From positions 1-13,771 of the forward strand of contig JAISRY010000076.1 of NCBI GenBank assembly GCA_031273385.1: a stretch of 13,771 bases of DNA, given 5' to 3'. Under the pieces are notes generated by a model. The model saw nothing but the letters and a program-made list of their open reading frames with translations, was not told where the DNA came from and searched no databases. This DNA comes from Tannerellaceae bacterium. GTDB lineage: Bacteria > Bacteroidota > Bacteroidia > Bacteroidales > Tannerellaceae. A program made the translations under genes and the position numbers. Positions within the stretch are counted from its first letter, which is position 1, and each line of letters starts with the position of its first letter. Below are positions 1,195 to 13,771 of the stretch, piece after piece.

Positions 1195-1227
1195 TTGCGG
1201 CAAAGATGCAGCAAATTCGTATCTTTG
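1195..1227 (+). promoter_or_regulatory. Promoter of the lipid-tailoring/export operon
   Basis: TATCTTTG (1220-1227) matches the Bacteroidetes -7 consensus TAnnTTTG. A TTG (1195-1197) sits 22 nt upstream. The box is half of a perfect inverted repeat, CAAAGAT (1201-1207) and ATCTTTG (1221-1227), so it has symmetric promoter-like halves on both strands, although no gene runs leftward. The expected start site (about 1231-1236) falls on the ATG codons at 1233/1236, which would make the first gene nearly leaderless. Confidence 0.6.
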
Positions 1228-1232
1228 TGGCT

Positions 1233-1604
1233 ATGATGAATAGGGAAGAAAAGCTTGCCGGCTTCTATGCCGTCAGGGCGGTATGGAAGGAAGGGGATGG
1301 CTATGTGTGCGAAGTTGGGCTGAATCCTGGGCACGATGTCTATCGGGGGCATTTTCCGGGTATGCCGGTCGCGCCGGGCGTTTGTTTGCTTTATCTGATT
1401 TGCGGATGCGTGTCGGGGGTGTACGGGCAGGCGTTCCGCTATCGCACGATCCGTAGCTGCAAGTTTCTTTCGGCGGTGAATCCGCTGGAAGAGGCGTCGC
1501 TTCGCCTGGCCTTTTCGCTGGATGACGGCGGCAACCTGCAGGCGGCGCTTACGGGCGGCGACAGGCCTTTGTTGAAACTGAAAGCGTTGTTGGCGAACGA
1601 ATGA
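1233..1604 (+). CDS. FabZ/ApeI-like hotdog-fold dehydratase-like protein
   Basis: Read from the ATG at 1233, this is a 123-residue single hotdog domain, the length of a short FabZ/ApeI-type (3R)-hydroxyacyl-ACP dehydratase. The signature HFPGMPVAPGV (residues 40-50) matches the FabZ active-site loop, with His40 as the catalytic His. The FabZ catalytic Glu, 14 residues after that His, is Tyr54 here, so classical dehydration may be lost or moved; thioesterase or acyl-binding function is possible. An in-frame ATG at 1128 would overlap the upstream gene and start before the promoter, so it was not used; 1236 is equally possible. This is the first gene of the operon, and its stop overlaps the next start by 4 nt (ATGA). 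It may handle a 3-hydroxyacyl or polyenyl thioester for the downstream enzymes. Confidence 0.78.
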   Translation: MMNREEKLAGFYAVRAVWKEGDGYVCEVGLNPGHDVYRGHFPGMPVAPGVCLLYLICGCVSGVYGQAFRYRTIRSCKFLSAVNPLEEASLRLAFSLDDGGNLQAALTGGDRPLLKLKALLANE

Positions 1605-2764
1605 CGGCGGAGGCGATACATACGGTCGTCGTCGTCCCGACCTACAACAATGCGGGGACGCTGGGAAAGGTACTGGAGGATGTGCTGGCGTGCGGTTTGC
1701 CCGTTATCGTGGTGAACGATGGGTCGACAGACCGGACGGCGGAGGTGTTGGAGGCGTTCCCCGGGGTGTGCGTCGCCGGTTATCCGAAGAACCGCGGGAA
1801 AGGCTTCGCCTTGCGTACCGGCCTGGCGGAGGCGGCGAGGCAAGGGTATCGGTATGCTATTACGCTCGACTCGGACGGCCAACATCTTGCCGGCGATATC
1901 CCCTCTTTCCTGGAGGCCGTCGCAGAACATCCCGACAGCCTGCTCATCGGCGCGCGCGACCTTTCGGCGGAGAATATGCCGGGGGAGAATACGTTTGCTA
2001 ACCGCTTTTCCAACTTCTGGTTTACCCTCGAGACAGGCCTTCGCCTGAGCGATACACAGTCCGGTTTCCGTCTTTACCCCCTGCGCCGCCTGGCGGGGAT
2101 GCGTTTCTTTACCACCGGGTATGAGCTGGAGCTGGAGGTCATCGTGCGGGCGGCCTGGCGCGGCATGCGGGTGGCCAACATACCGGTTGGCGTCTATTAT
2201 CCGCCTGCGGGGGAGCGGGTCAGCCATTTCCGCCCGTTGCGCGATTTCGCCCGTATCAGCGTGCTGAATATGCTCTTTGTGCTGGTGGCCATGCTGTGGT
2301 ATTGGCCATGGAAATGCCTGAAAGGGCTGACGAGGCAGCATATCGAACAGTTTATCTCCGACCATGTGACGCACTCGAAAGAGCCGAATAGCCGGATCGC
2401 CGGGTCGGTGGCGCTGGGGGTTTTTATGGGTATCGTTCCTATCTGGGGATACCAGATGATTGCGGCGGGTGTGCTGGCGCATCTGTTGGGGCTGAATAAG
2501 GTCATCGCCATTGTCAGTTCCAACGTCAGTATCCCCCCGATGATCCCTTTTATCCTGTTCGGGAGCTATGTCGCCGGAGGGTGGCTTCTCGGCCGTCCCG
2601 TCCTGCTGGCGATGGACGGGCTGACGCTCGAGACGGTCAGGGATTCGCTCGCGCAGTACCTGGCGGGCAGTATCCTGTTTGCCGTTGCCTCGGCTCTTCT
2701 GGCCGGCATGGCGTGCTTTGCCCTGCTGTCCCTGTTTCGTAAATCCGAACCCTCCGTCAGATGA
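1601..2764 (+). CDS. GT2 glycosyltransferase fused to DUF2062 membrane domain
   Basis: The protein has 387 residues. Residues 8-230 are a GT-A fold family 2 glycosyltransferase of the dolichyl-phosphate mannosyltransferase-like type: nucleotide-binding VVNDGSTD (37-44), metal-binding DSDGQH (90-95), and the QSGFR acceptor-loop motif (153-157). A hydrophobic segment near 222-240 leads into a C-terminal DUF2062 domain (about 247-385) with conserved GVFMGIVPIWGYQ and SIPPMIPF blocks and three or four membrane segments. The likely role is sugar transfer from a nucleotide-sugar to a lipid at the cytoplasmic face of the inner membrane. The donor and acceptor are unknown. The gene overlaps both neighbours by ATGA, so it is probably translated in step with the dehydratase-like protein and the exporter fusion. 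Membrane glycosyltransferases of this kind also occur in pigment-lipid clusters, which fits the context. Confidence 0.9.
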   Translation: MTAEAIHTVVVVPTYNNAGTLGKVLEDVLACGLPVIVVNDGSTDRTAEVLEAFPGVCVAGYPKNRGKGFALRTGLAEAARQGYRYAITLDSDGQHLAGDIPSFLEAVAEHPDSLLIGARDLSAENMPGENTFANRFSNFWFTLETGLRLSDTQSGFRLYPLRRLAGMRFFTTGYELELEVIVRAAWRGMRVANIPVGVYYPPAGERVSHFRPLRDFARISVLNMLFVLVAMLWYWPWKCLKGLTRQHIEQFISDHVTHSKEPNSRIAGSVALGVFMGIVPIWGYQMIAAGVLAHLLGLNKVIAIVSSNVSIPPMIPFILFGSYVAGGWLLGRPVLLAMDGLTLETVRDSLAQYLAGSILFAVASALLAGMACFALLSLFRKSEPSVR

Positions 2765-5700
2765 GCAGGCTCTTCCTCTTGGTCTATGATTACCTGGAGC
2801 GGCATCGTGCGCAGTGTTACCTGCTGATGGCGGCGAGTTTCGCGGCGTTGCTGTTCTTTGCCGTCCAGGTCAGGCTGGAAGAGGATGTCACCCGCTTTTT
2901 CCCCGACACGAAAGAGGCGCGCTATACAGAGGCCGTCTTCCGGAACCTGAAGATAAAAGACAGGATCATCATCCTCGTTTCCGCCCGCGACACGACGCGG
3001 AAGAGCGTCACGGCGGAGCGGCTGATCGAAGCCGGCGACGCCCTGAAAGAGGAGCTACTCCATGTCGCCGGAGGGGAGGAATATATCAGCGAAATCTTCG
3101 CCGAAGTGGATGACGGCCTGGCCGGGCAGGCGACCCGTTTTATCTACGACCACCTGCCGCTTTTCCTCACCGGATCCGATTATGAACGGATGGATTCGCT
3201 TTTCCGTCCCGAACAGCTCGCCAGGCGTATGCAGGCCAACCGGAATACCCTGCTCCTGCCCGTAGGCGCGGGGATCAAACCCCTCATCCTCCACGACCCC
3301 GCCGGACTGGGGATGCCCCTGCTGGAGAGCCTCCGCCGGTTTCAGCCGGCGGCGAACTATACGGTATACGACCGGCATATCTTTTCTGCCGACCGCTCCA
3401 CGCTGCTCCTTTTCCTCACCCCCCGCTACCAGACGGGAGAGACGGGGAAGAACGGCCTCCTTGTCGATGCGGTGGAGGCGGCGTTGGAAAGGGTGGAGGC
3501 GCGTTACCCCGACGTCGAGGCGGCCTATTTCGGCAGTCCGCCGGTCAGCGTATACAACGCCCGGCAGATCAAGCGCGATACGGTGGTCACGCTCAGCGTC
3601 GCGATGCTGATGATCGTCGTCCTCGTCCTGCTGGTCTTCAAGAGCCGGTCGGCGGTGGCGTTGATTATCCTGCCGGTCGTCTATGGGGCGGCCTTTTCGC
3701 TGGCTGTGATCTACTTCGTCAAAGGGTCGGTTTCGGGTATCGCGATCGGGGCGGGGTCGGCCATTTTCGGCGTAGCCCTGAGCTATTCCATCCATGTCCT
3801 GTCGCACTTCAACCATGTCGCTTCGATCCGGCAACTGATCAGGGAGCTGGCCTACCCGTTGACGGTGGGGAGCTTTACGACGGTGGGGGCGTTCTTCGGG
3901 CTGCTCTTTACCGGATCGGAGCTGTTGAGGGACTTTGGCCTCTTCTCCGGCCTGGCGCTGATCGGGACTACGGCCTTTTGCCTCGTCTTCCTGCCCCACC
4001 TCCTGCGGGTGAAACATACGCACCGCGCATCCGGCTATGTCCTCCGCCTCATCGAGCGGGTCAACGGGTACGCTTTCGAACGAAACAAACCGCTGGTGGC
4101 CGCTATACTGATTCTTTTTATCGTCTGCCTCTTCCTGTCGGACAGGGTGGCGTTCGACGGCAATATGATGAACCTGAGCTTCGAACCTCCCGCCCTCAAA
4201 GCGGCGGAAGAGCGGCTGAACCGGCTTTTCGGGTCGGACGACAAGACGGTACTCTTTGTGTCGGTAGGCCAAACGGCGGACGAGGGGTTGGAGAACTATG
4301 CCGAAACCAACCGCGCGCTCTCCCGCCTGAAAGAGGAGGGCAAGGTCAGGGCGTTCACCTCCGCCGGGACGCTGCTCGTCCCCCCGCACGAACAGGCCGC
4401 CCGCCTTAAGCGTTGGAACGGCTACTGGACGGATGCCCGCAAACGGGAGGTCAAAGCCTCGATCGACGACGCCGCCCGTAAGAGCGGTTTCCGCGAGGGG
4501 ACGTTCGACGCGTTCCATGCGTTCCTGGATACCCCCTGCACGGCGTCCTATCTGACGGACGGGGATCCTCCCGTGCGCCTGCTGGACGAATGGGTGACGC
4601 GTGCCGACTCCCTGTTCCTCTTTATCACGCAGGTACGCCTCGCAGAGGAAAACAAGGAAGAGGTGTATGCCGGACTCTCCGGCAACGACCATTTGGTGAT
4701 CTTCGACAGGGGATATTTTGCCAACAAATGGGTGTCGGCCATCCACGATGATTTCTACCTCATTCTTTACATCAGCTCTTTCTTGATCTTCTTCGCCCTG
4801 TTGATCTCCTACGGACGGATCGAGCTGACCCTGATGACGTTCGCGCCGATGGCCATCAGTTGGGTGATTATACTGGGGATTATGGCGGTCGGCGGTATCG
4901 CGTTCAACATCGTCAATATCATCCTGGCGACGTTTATCTTCGGGCTGGGCGACGATTTCAGCATCTTTATCATGGACGGCCTGCAACAGGAATACCGGAC
5001 GGGCAACAGGCTATTGGCTTCGCACAAGACCGCGATCTTTTTCTCTTCCCTGACGGCCGTCATCGGACTGGGGGCGTTGTCCTTTTCCCGCCATCCGGCG
5101 TTGCAATCTATCTCGGCGATCTCCGTGCTGGGTATCCTGTCGGTCGTCCTGGTGTCGTATACGGTATTGCCTCTCCTGTTCCGCCTCCTGATCAGCCGTC
5201 CGGCCAGGCGGGGGAACTACCCCTATACCTTTTCCGGCCTCCTGACCTCCGCCTGGCTCTACAATGCCTTTCTCACCGGCTGCTCCCTGGTGATCGGGGT
5301 CGCCTTTCTCCTCGTACCGCTTCCGGTGAAGCGGCGGACAAAGAAACGGCTCTTCGGCCTGAGCATCATGTATACGTTGCGCCTGTTCCTGAAAACGGCC
5401 TGGGTCGCCCGTCACGTCGTCGACAACCCGGAAAGGGAGACTTTCGAGAAACCGTCGGTGATCGTGGCCAACCACCAGTCGTTTATCGACATCCTGGTGC
5501 TGCTCTCGCTCTCCCCCAAGCTGGTGATGATGACGAACAGCAAAGTCTGGAACTTCCCCTTTATCGGGCGCATCGTGCGGTATGCCGATTTCGTGCAGAC
5601 GGCAGAGGGGTATGAGACCGTCCTCGGGCGGTTGCGCGAAAAGGTGGAGGCGGGCTATTCGGTGATCATCTTCCCCGAGGGCACCCGTTCGACGGACGGA

Positions 5701-6621
5701 CGGATACGCCGCTTCCATAAGGGGGCGTTCTATGTCGCCGAAAAGCTCCGGCTGGATATCCTGCCCGTCGTGCTGTACGGTACCGGCATGATCATCTCCA
5801 AACGCCAGCCGTTCCGTATCAAGCGCGGCATCCTGTGCACCCGCATCCTGCCGCGTATCCCCTGCGCCGCAGACGCCACCTACCGGGAGCGTACAAAAAC
5901 AGTCGCCGCCCTGTTGAAAAAAGAATACGAAGCAGCCGGGGCCTTATACAACCATACGGACAACCCCTACTTCTACCAGAAGCTGATCACGAACTATATC
6001 TACAAGGGGCCTGTCGAGGAGTGGTACCTGCGCATCAAGGTGAAGATGGAACGCCGCTACGCGTTCTTCCACCGGCATGTCCCTCGGAAAGGGATGGTGA
6101 CGGATATCGGTTGCGGCTACGGCGCGTTGTCGTATATGCTGATGATGCTTTCCGAAGGGCGTACGCTGCTGGGGATCGACTATGATGCGGAAAAGATAGC
6201 GGTCGCCGCCCACAACTTTTCGCGTAACGAACGGATCCGCTTCGTGGCAGGCGATGCGCTCACCGTCGGGCTGCCCATGAGCGACACGTTCATCCTGAAC
6301 GATGTGCTGCACTATATGGACGCGGCGGCGCAGGAGCGGCTGATCCTACGGTGTATCGACAAACTGCTTCCCGGAGGGATGATCATCATACGCGACGGAG
6401 ACCCGGCGGACAAACGCCATCACCGGCTGACACGCCTCACCGAGTATCTGTCGACCCGTCTGACGGGCTTCAACAAAAAAGAGCGGGAGTTCTACTTCCC
6501 GTCGGGCGAACGGCTGATGCACATAGCCGCGCAATACCGCATGGCGATCACGCGGCAAACCAACGACCGCTATACGTCGAACGTCCTGTATGTCTTAACG
6601 AAGAAAGAGTATCCGGTATGA
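2761..6621 (+). CDS. MMPL/RND exporter-PlsC acyltransferase-methyltransferase fusion
   Basis: The protein has 1286 residues in three parts. Residues 1-815 are an MMPL/HAE3-type RND transporter: a TM at 18-37, a periplasmic domain (about 40-270), a six-TM bundle (274-460), a second periplasmic domain (about 462-660) and a second bundle (665-815); an extra TM lies near 833-855. Residues about 880-1060 are a PlsC-type acyltransferase with NHQSFID (904-910, the HX4D motif) and FPEGTRS (971-977). Residues about 1085-1286 are a class I SAM methyltransferase with DIGCGYG (1115-1121). The likely role is acylating and methylating a lipid at the cytoplasmic face and exporting it. These activities are usually separate proteins in aryl polyene-type clusters. 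The TM4 proton-relay Asp is Ser341, while TM10 keeps Asp732. No frameshift is seen: the frame is open throughout, with even codon use. The gene overlaps both neighbours by ATGA. Confidence 0.92.
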   Translation: MSRLFLLVYDYLERHRAQCYLLMAASFAALLFFAVQVRLEEDVTRFFPDTKEARYTEAVFRNLKIKDRIIILVSARDTTRKSVTAERLIEAGDALKEELLHVAGGEEYISEIFAEVDDGLAGQATRFIYDHLPLFLTGSDYERMDSLFRPEQLARRMQANRNTLLLPVGAGIKPLILHDPAGLGMPLLESLRRFQPAANYTVYDRHIFSADRSTLLLFLTPRYQTGETGKNGLLVDAVEAALERVEARYPDVEAAYFGSPPVSVYNARQIKRDTVVTLSVAMLMIVVLVLLVFKSRSAVALIILPVVYGAAFSLAVIYFVKGSVSGIAIGAGSAIFGVALSYSIHVLSHFNHVASIRQLIRELAYPLTVGSFTTVGAFFGLLFTGSELLRDFGLFSGLALIGTTAFCLVFLPHLLRVKHTHRASGYVLRLIERVNGYAFERNKPLVAAILILFIVCLFLSDRVAFDGNMMNLSFEPPALKAAEERLNRLFGSDDKTVLFVSVGQTADEGLENYAETNRALSRLKEEGKVRAFTSAGTLLVPPHEQAARLKRWNGYWTDARKREVKASIDDAARKSGFREGTFDAFHAFLDTPCTASYLTDGDPPVRLLDEWVTRADSLFLFITQVRLAEENKEEVYAGLSGNDHLVIFDRGYFANKWVSAIHDDFYLILYISSFLIFFALLISYGRIELTLMTFAPMAISWVIILGIMAVGGIAFNIVNIILATFIFGLGDDFSIFIMDGLQQEYRTGNRLLASHKTAIFFSSLTAVIGLGALSFSRHPALQSISAISVLGILSVVLVSYTVLPLLFRLLISRPARRGNYPYTFSGLLTSAWLYNAFLTGCSLVIGVAFLLVPLPVKRRTKKRLFGLSIMYTLRLFLKTAWVARHVVDNPERETFEKPSVIVANHQSFIDILVLLSLSPKLVMMTNSKVWNFPFIGRIVRYADFVQTAEGYETVLGRLREKVEAGYSVIIFPEGTRSTDGRIRRFHKGAFYVAEKLRLDILPVVLYGTGMIISKRQPFRIKRGILCTRILPRIPCAADATYRERTKTVAALLKKEYEAAGALYNHTDNPYFYQKLITNYIYKGPVEEWYLRIKVKMERRYAFFHRHVPRKGMVTDIGCGYGALSYMLMMLSEGRTLLGIDYDAEKIAVAAHNFSRNERIRFVAGDALTVGLPMSDTFILNDVLHYMDAAAQERLILRCIDKLLPGGMIIIRDGDPADKRHHRLTRLTEYLSTRLTGFNKKEREFYFPSGERLMHIAAQYRMAITRQTNDRYTSNVLYVLTKKEYPV

Positions 6622-8117
6622 GCAGGTATGATGTCGTCATTATCGGTAGCGGCCTGGGAGGGCTGGTCTGCGGAGCGACGCTCGGCAAGGAGGGGTATCA
6701 TGTCTGCGTGCTGGAAAAGAACGGGGCGCCGGGCGGGTGCTTCCAGTCGTTTAAACGCAACGGCAGGCTGCTGGATACGGGGATTCACTATATCGGCGGC
6801 ATGGACGAGGGAGAGGCGTTGCACCAGTACTTTACCTACTTCGGCATACAGAACGGGCTGAAGCTGAAACGGATGGACGAAGAGGCGTTCGACATCATCC
6901 GCTATGGCGGGGAGGAATACCGTTACGCCATGGGGCATGAGCGCTTTGTCGAGACCCTCGCCCGGCGTTTCCCCAAAGAGAAAGAGGCGATCAGGCGGTA
7001 TGCCGCCATGCTGGACGGGATCGGACATACGATCAGTGTCGATCAGTTGGCGAAAGGGACGCTGTCGACAGGGGCGTTTGAACACTTTTCCACCTCCGCA
7101 TGGGAACGGATCACCTCCCTGACCTCCGACCGGCGGCTCCAACAGGTACTCTCCAGTCCCGCCCTGCTCTATGGCGGGGAGCAGGCCACCTCGACCTTTT
7201 ACCACCATGCCATGATCACCGACTCCTACCTCAAAGGCGCCTACCGCTTCGTGGACGGCAGTATGCAGGTGGTGGATGCCCTGGTGGACGTTATCCGGCG
7301 CCATGGGGGGACGGTGATGACGGAGGCCGAAGCGACGCGGCTATACCTCTCGGGCGACAGGGTGCAATCGGTCGAAGTCAACGGCGCGGAACGGCTGGAG
7401 GCGGCTCATGTCATCTCCTCGATTCATCCGGCTGTCACCATGCAGCTGGTCGAAAAAACGCCGCTCATCCGCAAAGCCTACCTCTCCAGGCTCTCCCGCC
7501 TGCCGAACTCCTACGGCCTCTTCTCCGTCTACCTCATACAGAAGAAGAACACGACGCCCTATCGCAACCACAACCTCTTCGTCTACGGTCGCGACAACGT
7601 CTGGCACAATACCCTCCATCCCGAAGATACGGCCATCAACTGCTCGCTGATCACCATGCAGCCCTCTTCCGCCGACGAACGCTACACCGATGTCATCTGC
7701 CTCCTGACCCCCATGTATATCGCCGAACTCCGGCAGTGGGAAGACACCACCGTAGAGCGCCGGGGCGACGGCTACCGGCAATTCAAGGAACAAAAAGCCA
7801 GGGAGATGATCTCCTTTGTCGAACAATATGAGCCCTCCATCAACCGCCATACCGAAGCCGTCTATACGGCGACGCCCCTGACCTACCGCGATTATACCGG
7901 TACGCCGGACGGCTCCGCCTACGGGATCATGAAGAACTACAACCAGCCGTTGGCCACGATCATCCCGAACCGTACCCGTATCGCCAACCTGCTCCTGGCA
8001 GGGCAGAACCTGAATGTGCACGGCGCACTGGGCGTGACGCTCACCTCCATGCTGACCTGCGCCGAACTGCTCGGTACCGACTACCTGGCCAAACGAATAG
8101 GAGGAAGCGTGATATGA
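6618..8117 (+). CDS. Phytoene desaturase/RetSat-like FAD oxidoreductase
   Basis: The protein has 499 residues from the ATG at 6618, which overlaps the upstream stop (ATGA); the longer frame from 6351 is read inside the upstream gene and is not the start. An N-terminal Rossmann motif DVVIIGSGLGGLVCG (5-19) is followed by acidic Glu33 and the GG pair (39-40), and the C-terminal FAD motif AGQNLNVHGALGVT lies at 461-474. The whole resembles the CrtI/CrtO/retinol-saturase (amine-oxidase-like) family that desaturates, saturates or isomerises polyene chains. No signal peptide is seen, so it should be cytoplasmic or membrane-associated. In this operon a substrate with conjugated double bonds, or a long acyl chain, is plausible. 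The direction of the reaction (desaturation or saturation) cannot be read from the sequence. It overlaps the next gene by 4 nt. Confidence 0.88.
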   Translation: MSRYDVVIIGSGLGGLVCGATLGKEGYHVCVLEKNGAPGGCFQSFKRNGRLLDTGIHYIGGMDEGEALHQYFTYFGIQNGLKLKRMDEEAFDIIRYGGEEYRYAMGHERFVETLARRFPKEKEAIRRYAAMLDGIGHTISVDQLAKGTLSTGAFEHFSTSAWERITSLTSDRRLQQVLSSPALLYGGEQATSTFYHHAMITDSYLKGAYRFVDGSMQVVDALVDVIRRHGGTVMTEAEATRLYLSGDRVQSVEVNGAERLEAAHVISSIHPAVTMQLVEKTPLIRKAYLSRLSRLPNSYGLFSVYLIQKKNTTPYRNHNLFVYGRDNVWHNTLHPEDTAINCSLITMQPSSADERYTDVICLLTPMYIAELRQWEDTTVERRGDGYRQFKEQKAREMISFVEQYEPSINRHTEAVYTATPLTYRDYTGTPDGSAYGIMKNYNQPLATIIPNRTRIANLLLAGQNLNVHGALGVTLTSMLTCAELLGTDYLAKRIGGSVI

Positions 8118-9766
8118 AAGGGGGGTGTGTTTTTGCTGGCCTTGTTGGGGTGGCGCTTCTTTTGGCGGGTGGCTTGTGCGGGCTTTATTTTACGGCCGAT
8201 ATGAAGCAGCCGGGCGTTTCGTTGCATGGCATTGCTGCCTATCCGTTGGTTAAGGGGGATAGTCTGCGGACTTATGGGGGCAATTGGCTTCGCTTGACGG
8301 CCTCCGGACTGTGGGAATTGCATGTCCAAGGGACGGGCTTTGAGCGGGGCGTGGCTGCCGGTAAACTCACCGAAGAGTTGCTGCATTACCAGGAAAAGGT
8401 CTTTGTGGATAAGATACGGGAATTTATCCCGTCGGACGGCTACCTGAAATGGCTGCGCTTCCTGCTGGTGGTGTTTAACCGGAAGCTGGGCGACTATGTC
8501 CCGGAAGAAAACAGGGAAGAGATCTACGGCATCTCCCTTTCGTGTTCGCACGACTATGATGCGATCGGGACGCCCTACCAGCGGCAGCTGAACTACCATG
8601 CGGCACACGATATCGGACACGCCATGCAGGATTATATGCTGGTCGGGTGCAGCTCTTTCGCCGTGTGGGGAAAGGAGGGCGCCGACTCGTCGCTCGTGAT
8701 CGGGCGTAACTTCGACTTCTATATGGGGGACGACTTCGCCCGTCACAAGGTCGTCTCTTTCTTCCGCCCTACTGAGGGCTATCGCTTTGCTTCCGTCGGG
8801 TGGGCGGGCATGACCGGCGTATTGTCCGGTATGAACGAAACAGGACTGACCGTGACCATCAACGCCGCAAAGTCCTCCGTCCCCCTCTATGCCGCCATGC
8901 CCATATCCCTCCTTGCACGTGAAATCCTGCAATATGCCTCCACCATCGACGAGGCCTACGTCATCGCCTCCCGACGCCGGACGTTCGTCGCCGAATCGTT
9001 GCTGATCGGCTCCGCCGCAGACGGGAGGGCTGCCGTTATTGAAAAGTCCGTCGACCGGATCGCCCTCTTCCGGCCGGAGACGGAGCGGATCGTCTGCACG
9101 AACCATTACCAGTCGGAAGCCTTTGCCGCCGACACACGCAACGCAGAGAATATCGCCACCTCAGACAGCCCCTACCGCTACGAGCGGATGAACGAACTGC
9201 TGGACGCCTGCCGTCCGGTCGATGCTACAAAAGCCGCCTCCGTCTTGAGAAACCGTTTCGGAAAGCAAGGGAAAGAGATCGGCCTGGCGAATGAGAAAGC
9301 GATCAACCAGTTCATCGCCCATCACTCCGTCATCTTCAAGCCCGAAAGCCGGCTGATGTGGGTCTCCACCGCCCCGTGGCAATCGGGCGCGTATGTGGCA
9401 TACGACCTGAACAGGATCTTTTCCCGACAGGCAACGGACGCCTGTCAGGTCGATTCCCTGGCTATCGCCCCCGATACGCTGCTGCATAGCCCCGTATACC
9501 AACGGCTACTCACCTACCGCCGCCTGTCGGAAAAGGTGCGCATGAGCATCCGCAACCACACCGTGCTGCCCGATACGGTGATCGAAAACCTCATAGCCGG
9601 TAACCCCGAACTGTATAACGCCTGGCTGCTGGCAGGGGATTACCGTCAGGCGTCGGGCGACAGGGAAAAGGCCGTCGCCTATTGGGAAAAGGCCTTGACG
9701 AAAGAGATTCCCAAAGCGGAGGAACGGGCGGCCATCGAGAAGAAAATAAAGAAACTAAAGAGATAA
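8114..9766 (+). CDS. Membrane-anchored C45-like Ntn hydrolase/acyltransferase
   Basis: The protein has 550 residues. A hydrophobic N-terminal segment (about 5-27) is a signal anchor or signal peptide; no convincing lipobox is present. The C45 (acyl-CoA:6-aminopenicillanate acyltransferase-like) core starts at GCSSFAV, with predicted nucleophile Cys179. In this family autocleavage occurs between Gly and Cys, matching Gly178-Cys179. RNFDFY (198-203) and SGMNETGLTVTINA fit the Ntn fold. The C-terminal 60 residues (ending in YRQASGDREKAVAYWEKAL and a lysine-rich tail) look like one TPR-like hairpin. Family members act on amide bonds or transfer acyl groups to amines. The enzyme would work outside the cytoplasm if the N-terminus is an export signal, so it may finish or process a lipid after MMPL export. 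The start at 8114 is fixed by the ATGA overlap with the upstream gene. Confidence 0.85.
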   Translation: MKGGCVFAGLVGVALLLAGGLCGLYFTADMKQPGVSLHGIAAYPLVKGDSLRTYGGNWLRLTASGLWELHVQGTGFERGVAAGKLTEELLHYQEKVFVDKIREFIPSDGYLKWLRFLLVVFNRKLGDYVPEENREEIYGISLSCSHDYDAIGTPYQRQLNYHAAHDIGHAMQDYMLVGCSSFAVWGKEGADSSLVIGRNFDFYMGDDFARHKVVSFFRPTEGYRFASVGWAGMTGVLSGMNETGLTVTINAAKSSVPLYAAMPISLLAREILQYASTIDEAYVIASRRRTFVAESLLIGSAADGRAAVIEKSVDRIALFRPETERIVCTNHYQSEAFAADTRNAENIATSDSPYRYERMNELLDACRPVDATKAASVLRNRFGKQGKEIGLANEKAINQFIAHHSVIFKPESRLMWVSTAPWQSGAYVAYDLNRIFSRQATDACQVDSLAIAPDTLLHSPVYQRLLTYRRLSEKVRMSIRNHTVLPDTVIENLIAGNPELYNAWLLAGDYRQASGDREKAVAYWEKALTKEIPKAEERAAIEKKIKKLKR

Positions 9767-9771
9767 CGTAT

Positions 9772-11067
9772 ATGCATACATTCAGTGAAATACAATACAA
9801 AACGGCGGAAGAGATCCTCCTGTTCCAGGAGGCGAAGCTAAGGGAAGAGCTGGCCTACCTCTCCCAACGCTCCACATTCTACCGCCGGATGTTCGGGGAG
9901 CGGCGGATCGACATCAGGGAGATCCGGACGATAGAAGACCTTCAGCGGCTTCCGGTGACGACCAAGGCCGACCTGCAACGCCATAACGCCGACTTTGTGT
10001 GCGTCGACAAGAGCGAGATCATCGACTATGTGACCACGTCGGGCACGCTGGGCGATCCCGTCACGTTCGTCCTCACCTCCGGGGATCTGGACAGGCTGTC
10101 GTACAACGAATACCTCTCCTTTACCACCGCAGGCTGTACCGCCCGCGACGTCATGCAACTGATGACGACGCTCGACCGCCGCTTCATGGCCGGACTGGCC
10201 TATTACATGGGGGCGCGCGAACTGGGCGCCGGCGTGGTGCGCGTGGGGAACGGGATACCGGAGTTGCAATGGGACACCATCGAGCGGATACGGCCTACCT
10301 TTTGCATGGTCGTCCCCTCCTTTCTCATCAAACTGATCGAATATGCCGGGGCGCACGGAGTGGACTATCGCCGCTCGTCGCTGAGAAAGGCGATCTGCAT
10401 AGGGGAGCCGCTACGCCATCCCGACTTCTCCCTCAATACGCTGGGCAAACGGATCGACGAAGAATGGCCGGCATTGTCGCTCTACTCCACCTACGCCTCC
10501 ACCGAGATGCAGTCCTCCTTTACCGAATGTGACGCCCATTGCGGCGGCCATTTGCAGCCGGAACTGATCATCGTCGAGTTTCTGGACGACCGTAACCGCG
10601 CTGTCGGGGAGGACGAACCCGGCGAGGTGACCGTCACCACCCTGGGCGTGCGCGGTATGCCGTTGCTCCGTTTCAAAACGGGGGATATCTGTTACCGCCA
10701 TACCGCCCCCTGTTCGTGCGGGCGGCATACGATCCGCCTGGGCCCTGTATTGGGGAGAAAAGGGCAAATGATCAAATACAAGGGGACGACCCTCTATCCC
10801 CCCGCCCTGTATGACATCCTCGACACGATACCGGAGGTGAAGAACTATGCCGTGGAGGTATACACAGGCGAGCTGGGCACGGATGAGATCCTCATACGCG
10901 TGGGAAGCGAAAGGCGGACAGACGCTTTCGCCAAAGAGATCAAAGACCTTTTCCGCTCGAAAATACGGGTAGCGCCCGCCATACGCTTCGCTACGGAGGA
11001 AGAAATCGCAAAAATTCAGCTGCCTGAGATGAGCAGGAAAACAATTAAATTCATAGATTCACGTTAA
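9772..11067 (+). CDS. PaaK-like adenylate-forming ligase (phenylacetate-CoA ligase family)
   Basis: The protein has 431 residues, the normal length for the PaaK branch of acyl/aryl-CoA ligases. Motifs: ATP-binding TTSGTLGDP (88-96), YASTE (241-245, A5), RFKTGD (300-305, A7) and GRKGQMIKYKG in the A8 hinge; it ends in the typical MSRKTIKFIDSR. Cys253, His256, Cys257, Cys314 and Cys316 could form a structural zinc site, as in some family members. It activates a carboxylic acid, aryl or fatty, as an adenylate and then a thioester. The ATG at 9772 was chosen because it follows the upstream stop by 4 nt; the longer frame from 9682 lies inside that gene. In this operon it may prime or activate the acyl or aryl starter for the other enzymes. 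The substrate cannot be read from the sequence. Confidence 0.88.
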   Translation: MHTFSEIQYKTAEEILLFQEAKLREELAYLSQRSTFYRRMFGERRIDIREIRTIEDLQRLPVTTKADLQRHNADFVCVDKSEIIDYVTTSGTLGDPVTFVLTSGDLDRLSYNEYLSFTTAGCTARDVMQLMTTLDRRFMAGLAYYMGARELGAGVVRVGNGIPELQWDTIERIRPTFCMVVPSFLIKLIEYAGAHGVDYRRSSLRKAICIGEPLRHPDFSLNTLGKRIDEEWPALSLYSTYASTEMQSSFTECDAHCGGHLQPELIIVEFLDDRNRAVGEDEPGEVTVTTLGVRGMPLLRFKTGDICYRHTAPCSCGRHTIRLGPVLGRKGQMIKYKGTTLYPPALYDILDTIPEVKNYAVEVYTGELGTDEILIRVGSERRTDAFAKEIKDLFRSKIRVAPAIRFATEEEIAKIQLPEMSRKTIKFIDSR

Positions 11068-13639: not shown

Positions 13640-13771
13640 CCGAGCGCAAGCAAGAACGTCATGTCGACCGAGCGCAGCGAGTGGAGACACCTCCGATCGC
13701 ACCCGCCTGCCCTTTCGATCGGAGTTCCTATGTTTGTAATCTCGAATGAAAAAAGAAGCTAGGAGTAGGAT
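13640..13771. repeat. Dispersed-repeat-like sequence with 9-bp inverted repeat
   Basis: AACGTCATGTCGACCGAGCG and the GCAGCGAGTGGAGACACCTC that follows resemble the GTCATGxxGAGCG...GAGACATCTC dispersed repeats common in Bacteroidetes and Chlorobi. CTCCGATCG (13691-13699) and CGATCGGAG (13716-13724) form a 9-bp inverted repeat at its end. From 13725 to the window end no gene or signal is seen. Confidence 0.5.

Follow-up and report, generated by a model that had tools for sequence, protein, structure and literature searches.

Among described systems, those closest to the locus analysed here are the flexirubin (flx) cluster of Chitinophaga pinensis, where FlxA yields 4-coumarate and FlxY, a 4-coumarate-CoA ligase, yields 4-coumaroyl-CoA (PMC3992019), and a Bacteroides xylanisolvens cluster that has been likened to flx (PMC12940132). 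ApeI and ApeP are heterodimeric dehydratases with a single active site (PMC8041823). Dialkylresorcinol (DAR) clusters were found in 16 of 39 genomes, and polyene genes without DAR genes have already been published (PMC3949708). The subject of this study is a 13,771-nt stretch of a Tannerellaceae bacterium (the window; positions 1-13771 of contig C36 in genome G000, assembly GCA_031273385.1, 70% complete in 251 contigs), which carries a block of six plus-strand open reading frames (ORFs) at 1236-11067. The block is very probably the distal half of a flexirubin-type aryl-polyene pathway that in the window's lineage is split into two loci. The type of pathway is known, but its arrangement here is unusual, and a literature search, with subscription journals and preprints outside its reach, found no account of this split among the papers listed.

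No ketosynthase, ketoreductase, acyl carrier protein (ACP) or ammonia-lyase gene was recognised among the window genes, in agreement with a preliminary description of this DNA. A PF00109 search of G000 found three ketosynthases, all in one operon on a second contig, C185 (locus L004). On a single strand, this operon encodes first an FlxA-type tyrosine ammonia-lyase, a ketoreductase, a ketosynthase, an ACP, an LpxL-type acyltransferase and a methyltransferase, then a hotdog dehydratase (C7), a ketosynthase, an ACP, another ketosynthase and a ketosynthase-like protein (PF13723), and last a polysaccharide deacetylase, LolA and a lipoprotein-like protein (C14), which had no Pfam match and whose profile matched nothing in the PDB. 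The lyase passed the FlxA equivalog NF053541 with 843.3 bits against a cut-off of 700. Lyase, FlxY, ketosynthases, ketoreductase, ACPs and dehydratase of the flx pathway were all found in G000, and the cluster ORFs were open in both halves. Housekeeping FabF was not found by the PF00109 search of G000, as expected for an incomplete genome; each of five relatives tested gave four or five PF00109 matches. The conserved partner locus that the preliminary description proposed to look for therefore exists, but its claim that the block lacks chain-building enzymes of its own did not hold, because the ligase scored above the threshold for FlxY and the hotdog protein is similar to a subunit of a dehydratase, while the remaining builders are on C185. 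Two of the six block genes, those for FlxY and the hotdog protein, are assigned to chain building by their profile matches.

Each half was colinear with the clusters of G055 and G056 and with the named clusters, where the halves are joined; in G000 they are separate. In G055 and G056, which belong to other families of the order, both halves are contiguous on one strand with the same order of recognised genes, except that G055 showed no C14 match and has an ORF without a match in the place of the methyltransferase. In G016, of the window's own genus, the junction between the lipoprotein and hotdog genes is intact and the contig continues through LolA, the deacetylase and the ketosynthase-like protein. 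The join of this cluster, including C7 to C9, is inferred, since the contig ends inside a ketosynthase and a second contig starts at the methyltransferase, with the cluster ending in the lyase. The chain builders apparently lie on another contig in G000 because a normally continuous cluster broke in two in this lineage.

The named loci, to which all named-locus counts refer, are the best 80 of 446 confirmed loci. A complete one-strand block from GT2 to FlxY was present in 40 of them. In 36 of these the sequence upstream of the exporter was 9 kb or longer, and in all 36 of these testable loci the block adjoined chain builders. Ketosynthases were upstream on the same strand in 34 and downstream of FlxY in two (L131 and L133). 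In the latter two the order is permuted, with genes for lyase, ketoreductase and ketosynthase directly after the GT2-to-FlxY block, which means that this block boundary has served repeatedly. A ketosynthase was within the fetched stretch of 37 of the 40 complete-block loci and not within that of L087, L112 and L148, all with little upstream DNA. Among 58 loci with enough upstream DNA, 22 were without a complete block and 17 without an upstream ketosynthase. Across 60 genomes including G000, 13 had both an exporter fusion of nearly full length and a lyase with an identity of 59% or more, one had the fusion only (G053), one the lyase only (G036) and 45 had neither (Fisher test, 3.7e-11, with cut-offs set after viewing the lists and with related genomes). 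G053, which is 99% complete and gave no lyase match, is another separated, lyase-free version, with exporter, FAD and C45 genes on C26 (L051) and C8/C10-sized ketosynthases on C18. Of 18 genomes of the window's genus, G000, G013 and G016 have an exporter at least 65% identical to the window's, six have a type of 32-35% identity and nine have neither.

The two loci are predicted to share one enzyme. The profile of the window's hotdog family (28 of 32 listed frames, with the L104 row apparently in a wrong frame) matched 3esi_A (1.9e-9), 6qsr_A (6.5e-9) and then FabZ, and the C7 profile (18 of 20 listed frames plus L004 and L045) matched FabZ proteins and 6qsr_B (4.2e-6). Two different hotdog subunits thus match different chains of 6qsr, the window protein chain A and C7 chain B; from the chain names, we take 6qsr to be the ApeI/ApeP pair. 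The active site of FabZ is composed of a His and a Glu from two protomers. In the window's family, the His of the GHFP motif was kept in 28 of 29 rows, the exception being L104, and an acid at the position of the FabZ Glu or 6qsr_A Asp was present in 0 of 29. In the C7 family, the Glu aligned with that of FabZ was invariant (20/20) and HFP was found in 0 of 20 rows. With the His in the window and the Glu on C185, a composite dehydratase site is predicted, to which each locus would have to contribute one subunit.

The cluster is broken at the lipoprotein-hotdog junction in G000 and in G013, each in its own assembly; with an exporter 90% identical to the window's, G013 is the nearest relative that was found. 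In most of the 42 named loci that are contiguous, the hotdog gene abuts the preceding gene or overlaps with it. TAnnTTTG is the -7 type promoter element of Bacteroidota, and such a box was found no more than 40 nt before the hotdog ATG in 2 of these 42 loci, namely L082, the G016 contig, with a lipoprotein-hotdog gap of 111 nt, and L083, from Massilibacteroides vaginae (placed in Porphyromonadaceae by NCBI), with a gap of 1193 nt at the same junction. A third box was 93 nt from the hotdog ATG in L147; hotdog starts are misplaced in L101 and L104 and probably in L087, L099 and L115, which were scored as without a box. Both separated copies, in the window and in G013, also carry a box before the hotdog gene, and in both genomes a further box precedes the lyase gene. 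A Fisher comparison of boxes (4 of 4 vs 0 of 40) is given no weight here, since its groups were formed once the result had been seen and the genomes are related. The sequence surrounding the hotdog box is common to G013 and G016, so the putative promoter probably predates the break; the box of M. vaginae has a different appearance. The M. vaginae insert (L083:7299-8491) holds an opposite-strand open stretch of 171 codons that, judged by eye, is presumably RhuM-like. The preliminary description let an operon begin at the hotdog gene, a start that is particular to the window's lineage.

An alternative is that G000 still has one locus, with an insert between the lipoprotein and hotdog genes inside which the assembly broke. 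The contig ends are correctly oriented for this, as C185 ends 1.95 kb past the lipoprotein gene and the hotdog gene is preceded by 1.2 kb of window sequence. The end stretch of C185 is also rich in inverted repeats beside the breakpoint, related pieces occur towards the opposite end of the window (13.65-13.72 kb), and M. vaginae has an insert with an opposite-strand frame at exactly this junction. In G013, however, the two broken ends are bordered by other genes over at least 7 kb and at least 3 kb. Furthermore, the permease and Gfo-type dehydrogenase genes that adjoin the halves were both found in 11 other genomes of the genus and on different contigs in 11 of 11, although only in G006 is this a case of real distance, each gene there being over 130 kb away from the ends of its contig (466 and 400 kb). 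Gene order around both genes is poorly conserved in the genus, so this flank test suggests two neighbourhoods, does not show a break event and is not decisive against a single locus. A single interrupted locus is rather unlikely. Between the flanks of G000 and G013, the shared matches besides the Gfo gene next to FlxY are short and repeat-like. In G013 the match of this Gfo gene (C9:17237-18265) contains one TGA. Intergenic inverted and tandem repeats were seen at L004:1-600 and 1760-1927 and at window positions 13652-13724 and 262-420, some of them common to both contigs.

The product was approached through DarB (NF053539), which was above the cut-off in 4 of 4 Chitinophaga genomes and in 0 of 8 others (M. 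vaginae, four Bacteroides, Phocaeicola vulgatus, Proteiniphilum and Pseudochryseolinea), hence in none of the six Bacteroides, Phocaeicola and Massilibacteroides genomes; the Proteiniphilum match was just an 86-aa frame of 84 bits. Among the 60 relatives, the query was the DarB-like protein of G028 (548.1 bits, against the NF053539 cut-off of 550). It found nothing in G000, G013, G016, G055 or G056; DarA was not searched. Of eight genomes with the 32-35% exporter type, G008, G011, G017 and G028 gave strong DarB matches and G002, G004, G005 and G038 gave none. G011 (L049, L050) carries this second exporter type (33%) together with DarB, and its FlxY and exporter genes are about 126 kb from its lyase genes on one contig. 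Because no DarB was found here or in the six relatives, the predicted product is probably a resorcinol-free aryl-polyene lipid.

A true flexirubin, i.e. a polyene esterified to a dialkylresorcinol, is accordingly unsupported. A true flexirubin pathway with DAR genes that are unassembled or too diverged would fit the 70% completeness of G000, the location of the C. pinensis dar genes away from the flx cluster (PMC3992019) and the separate contigs of DarB and cluster in C. filiformis. Against this stand the DarB searches in the four relatives and the contrast between the six genomes and Chitinophaga, and we consider such a pathway improbable. More tentatively, and with less than even confidence, the DarB-free flx clusters of gut Bacteroidales may define an undescribed class of outer-membrane lipids, in which the membrane-anchored C45 enzyme would transfer a coumarate-started polyene outside the inner membrane from an MMPL-moved carrier lipid to an acceptor that is not dialkylresorcinol; in the lineage of the window the two halves would be separately promoted and the dehydratase subunits encoded apart.

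Several observations speak against a split and working resorcinol-free pathway. The window box ends just 8 nt before ATG 1236, so that a transcript from the putative promoter would be almost leaderless, and both contigs are short. The aryl-polyene product is a prediction from the genes, and DarB might sit in the unassembled 30% of G000. Wherever a named locus includes both neighbours of the 4HBT thioesterase gene, the gene itself is there too (23 of 23), but it was not in the cluster of G000 or G013, and elsewhere in them only 24% identical matches were found. In G000 it is cleanly gone between the dehydratase and ketosynthase genes, which overlap by 4 nt (L004:8046-8049). The G013 operon contains an AbiEi/AbiEii toxin-antitoxin-type pair on the same strand between the ketosynthase and ketosynthase-like genes (L057:5931-7513). 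With the thioesterase loss and this pair, decay is possible, and the lipoproteins of G000 and G013 are only 56% identical with a stop within the aligned stretch. A cluster that has been decaying since the break and is non-functional is nevertheless very unlikely, because the G000 cluster ORFs are open, the ratio of nonsynonymous to synonymous substitution (dN/dS) between G000 and G013 was 0.056-0.277 in all 20 cluster genes compared, and deletion of the thioesterase apeK in E. coli merely lowers pigmentation (PMC8253772). Purifying selection thus acts on genes in each half. Between the same genomes, dS was 0.28-0.36 from exporter to FlxY (window 2761-11064 vs L056), 0.51-1.12 in the C185 genes and 0.65 in Gfo, and GC content at third codon positions in G013 was 0.69-0.75 in the block vs 0.52-0.66 in the measured C185-type genes. 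The lower dS may reflect an exchange of the exporter-to-FlxY tract.

That the block is an independent operon decorating and exporting the lipid of an unrelated pathway, as the missing builders in the window and the lyase-free exporter, FAD and C45 genes of G053 might suggest, is hardly credible given the colinear clusters elsewhere, the passed FlxY and FlxA cut-offs, the 36 of 36 loci beside chain builders and the ketosynthases that G053 too has on another contig. An orphan lipid-tailoring operon was ruled out by the chain builders on C185, and a truncated cluster by the presence of the other half in G000 with open ORFs. The suggestion that the lipid is made elsewhere was right in that most chain building is encoded at the other locus; the block itself is the second half of flx and not an independent decorating unit. 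The observation that the preliminary description had named as its refutation, adjacent ketosynthase/ACP genes in homologous operons, does hold in 36 of 36 testable named loci and in G055, G056 and G016, but the present copy is split, not truncated.

In the working model of a split flx pathway, the C185 ammonia-lyase would make 4-coumarate and the window's FlxY would activate it, activities that were measured for the C. pinensis homologues. The C185 ketosynthases with their ketosynthase-like partner, the ketoreductase and the two ACPs would extend the chain, and the dehydratase of two hotdog proteins would take its His from the window and its Glu from C185. Judged from family and gene company, the LpxL-type and PlsC acyltransferases, the glycosyltransferase and the deacetylase may link the polyene to a lipid, the MMPL protein may carry the lipid-linked polyene across the inner membrane, the membrane-anchored C45 enzyme may act as a transacylase outside it, in the periplasm, and LolA and the lipoprotein may bring the product to the outer membrane. 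With DarB not found, the final acceptor is probably not a dialkylresorcinol. The putative hotdog promoter, already present in the contiguous G016 cluster, would have allowed expression of the block alone after the break.

The features of the window are listed in the table. The six-gene content and tight packing given in the preliminary description are real, as are the four ATGA overlaps; the gap at the last junction is 5 nt instead of 4. Its gene classes do belong to aryl polyene and flexirubin clusters.

Table. Features of the window, with the matches on which each assignment is based
Feature	Position	Strand	Basis
Putative promoter 5' of the hotdog gene	1195-1227	+	TTG and TATCTTTG, -7 type box TAnnTTTG
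Hotdog protein, ApeI-like dehydratase subunit (FlxS-like)	1236-1604	+	Profile match to 3esi_A, 6qsr_A
GT2-DUF2062 glycosyltransferase (FlxT-like, letter tentative)	1601-2764	+	PF00535 79.6 bits, PF09835 72.3 bits
MMPL exporter-PlsC acyltransferase-methyltransferase fusion (FlxU-like, letter tentative)	2761-6621, 1286 aa	+	PF03176, PF01553, PF13649 above cut-off
CrtI/CrtD-type FAD oxidoreductase (FlxV-like, letter tentative)	6618-8117	+	PF01593, PF13450
C45/AAT autoproteolytic acyltransferase (FlxW-like, letter tentative)	8114-9766	+	NF040521 236.7 bits, cut-off 85
FlxY-type acyl-CoA ligase (starter activation)	9772-11067	+	NF053551 706.9 bits, cut-off 520

For the hotdog gene, an ATG at 1233 is also a possible start; its protein had no Pfam match, and as a single sequence it gave very weak FabZ matches. 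Full-length relatives of the exporter fusion span Bacteroides to Chitinophaga, and the CrtD/CrtI NCBIfam matches of the FAD oxidoreductase were below cut-off. An alignment of the C45 protein from the window and 18 chosen loci showed a membrane-anchor-like N-terminus in the window and most rows and an invariant Cys179 (19/19); the protein had no match in the PDB. The gene 5' of the block (674-1177) had a sub-threshold HTH_36 match (18 bits, cut-off 25), so that its earlier description as unrelated and winged-helix-like is reasonable. Two further observations concern other genomes. In P. vulgatus ATCC 8482, the hotdog-GT2 spacing is about 1.8 kb (L086:7041-8844), unlike the other listed loci, and in G016, which has 7% contamination, a ketosynthase (C239:4242-5039) belongs to a 2267-codon open frame that may encode a type I polyketide synthase.

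In such a genome, software that detects gene clusters within a single contig or neighbourhood at a time would register only half of the pathway and could misname it. The arrangement suggests a stepwise operon separation, from touching genes to a gap with a promoter and then to separation, with selection maintaining the two halves. A further implication is that cultured Bacteroides and Phocaeicola of the gut may make a resorcinol-free aryl-polyene lipid, whose acceptor can be looked for in them directly.

Compared to the flx clusters of C. pinensis and relatives, the G000 genes have in common the FlxA and FlxY families and the dehydratase, glycosyltransferase, exporter, reductase and ligase-like genes (PMC3992019). 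The Chitinophaga loci had the same gene order as far as fetched, with exporters 38-42% identical to the window's. In contrast to them, the G000 cluster is split, its thioesterase is missing and DarB was not found, whereas all four Chitinophaga genomes tested have DarB. The aryl polyene clusters of gut Bacteroides and Phocaeicola are colinear and flx-type, with exporters 50-54% identical and no DarB above cut-off, but they are contiguous, and in most of them the hotdog gene touches the preceding gene. The ape clusters of E. coli and Acinetobacter resemble the G000 genes in an RND exporter, a LolA/LolB-like pair, acyl- and glycosyltransferases and the heterodimeric ApeI/ApeP, and differ in being contiguous and in a 4-hydroxybenzoate starter (PMC8253772, PMC8041823); the C45 acyltransferase and the FAD oxidoreductase are not in the E. 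coli ape gene table of PMC8253772. The arcuflavin genes of Azoarcus sp. BH72 also have polyene genes at two unlinked loci, and insertion in either locus gave colourless cells (PMC3949708). That system is xanthomonadin-like, with a 4-hydroxybenzoate-type starter and a DAR locus, and its split is unrelated to the one described here (PMC3949708). A split polyene pathway such as that proposed for G000 has a tested precedent in Azoarcus.

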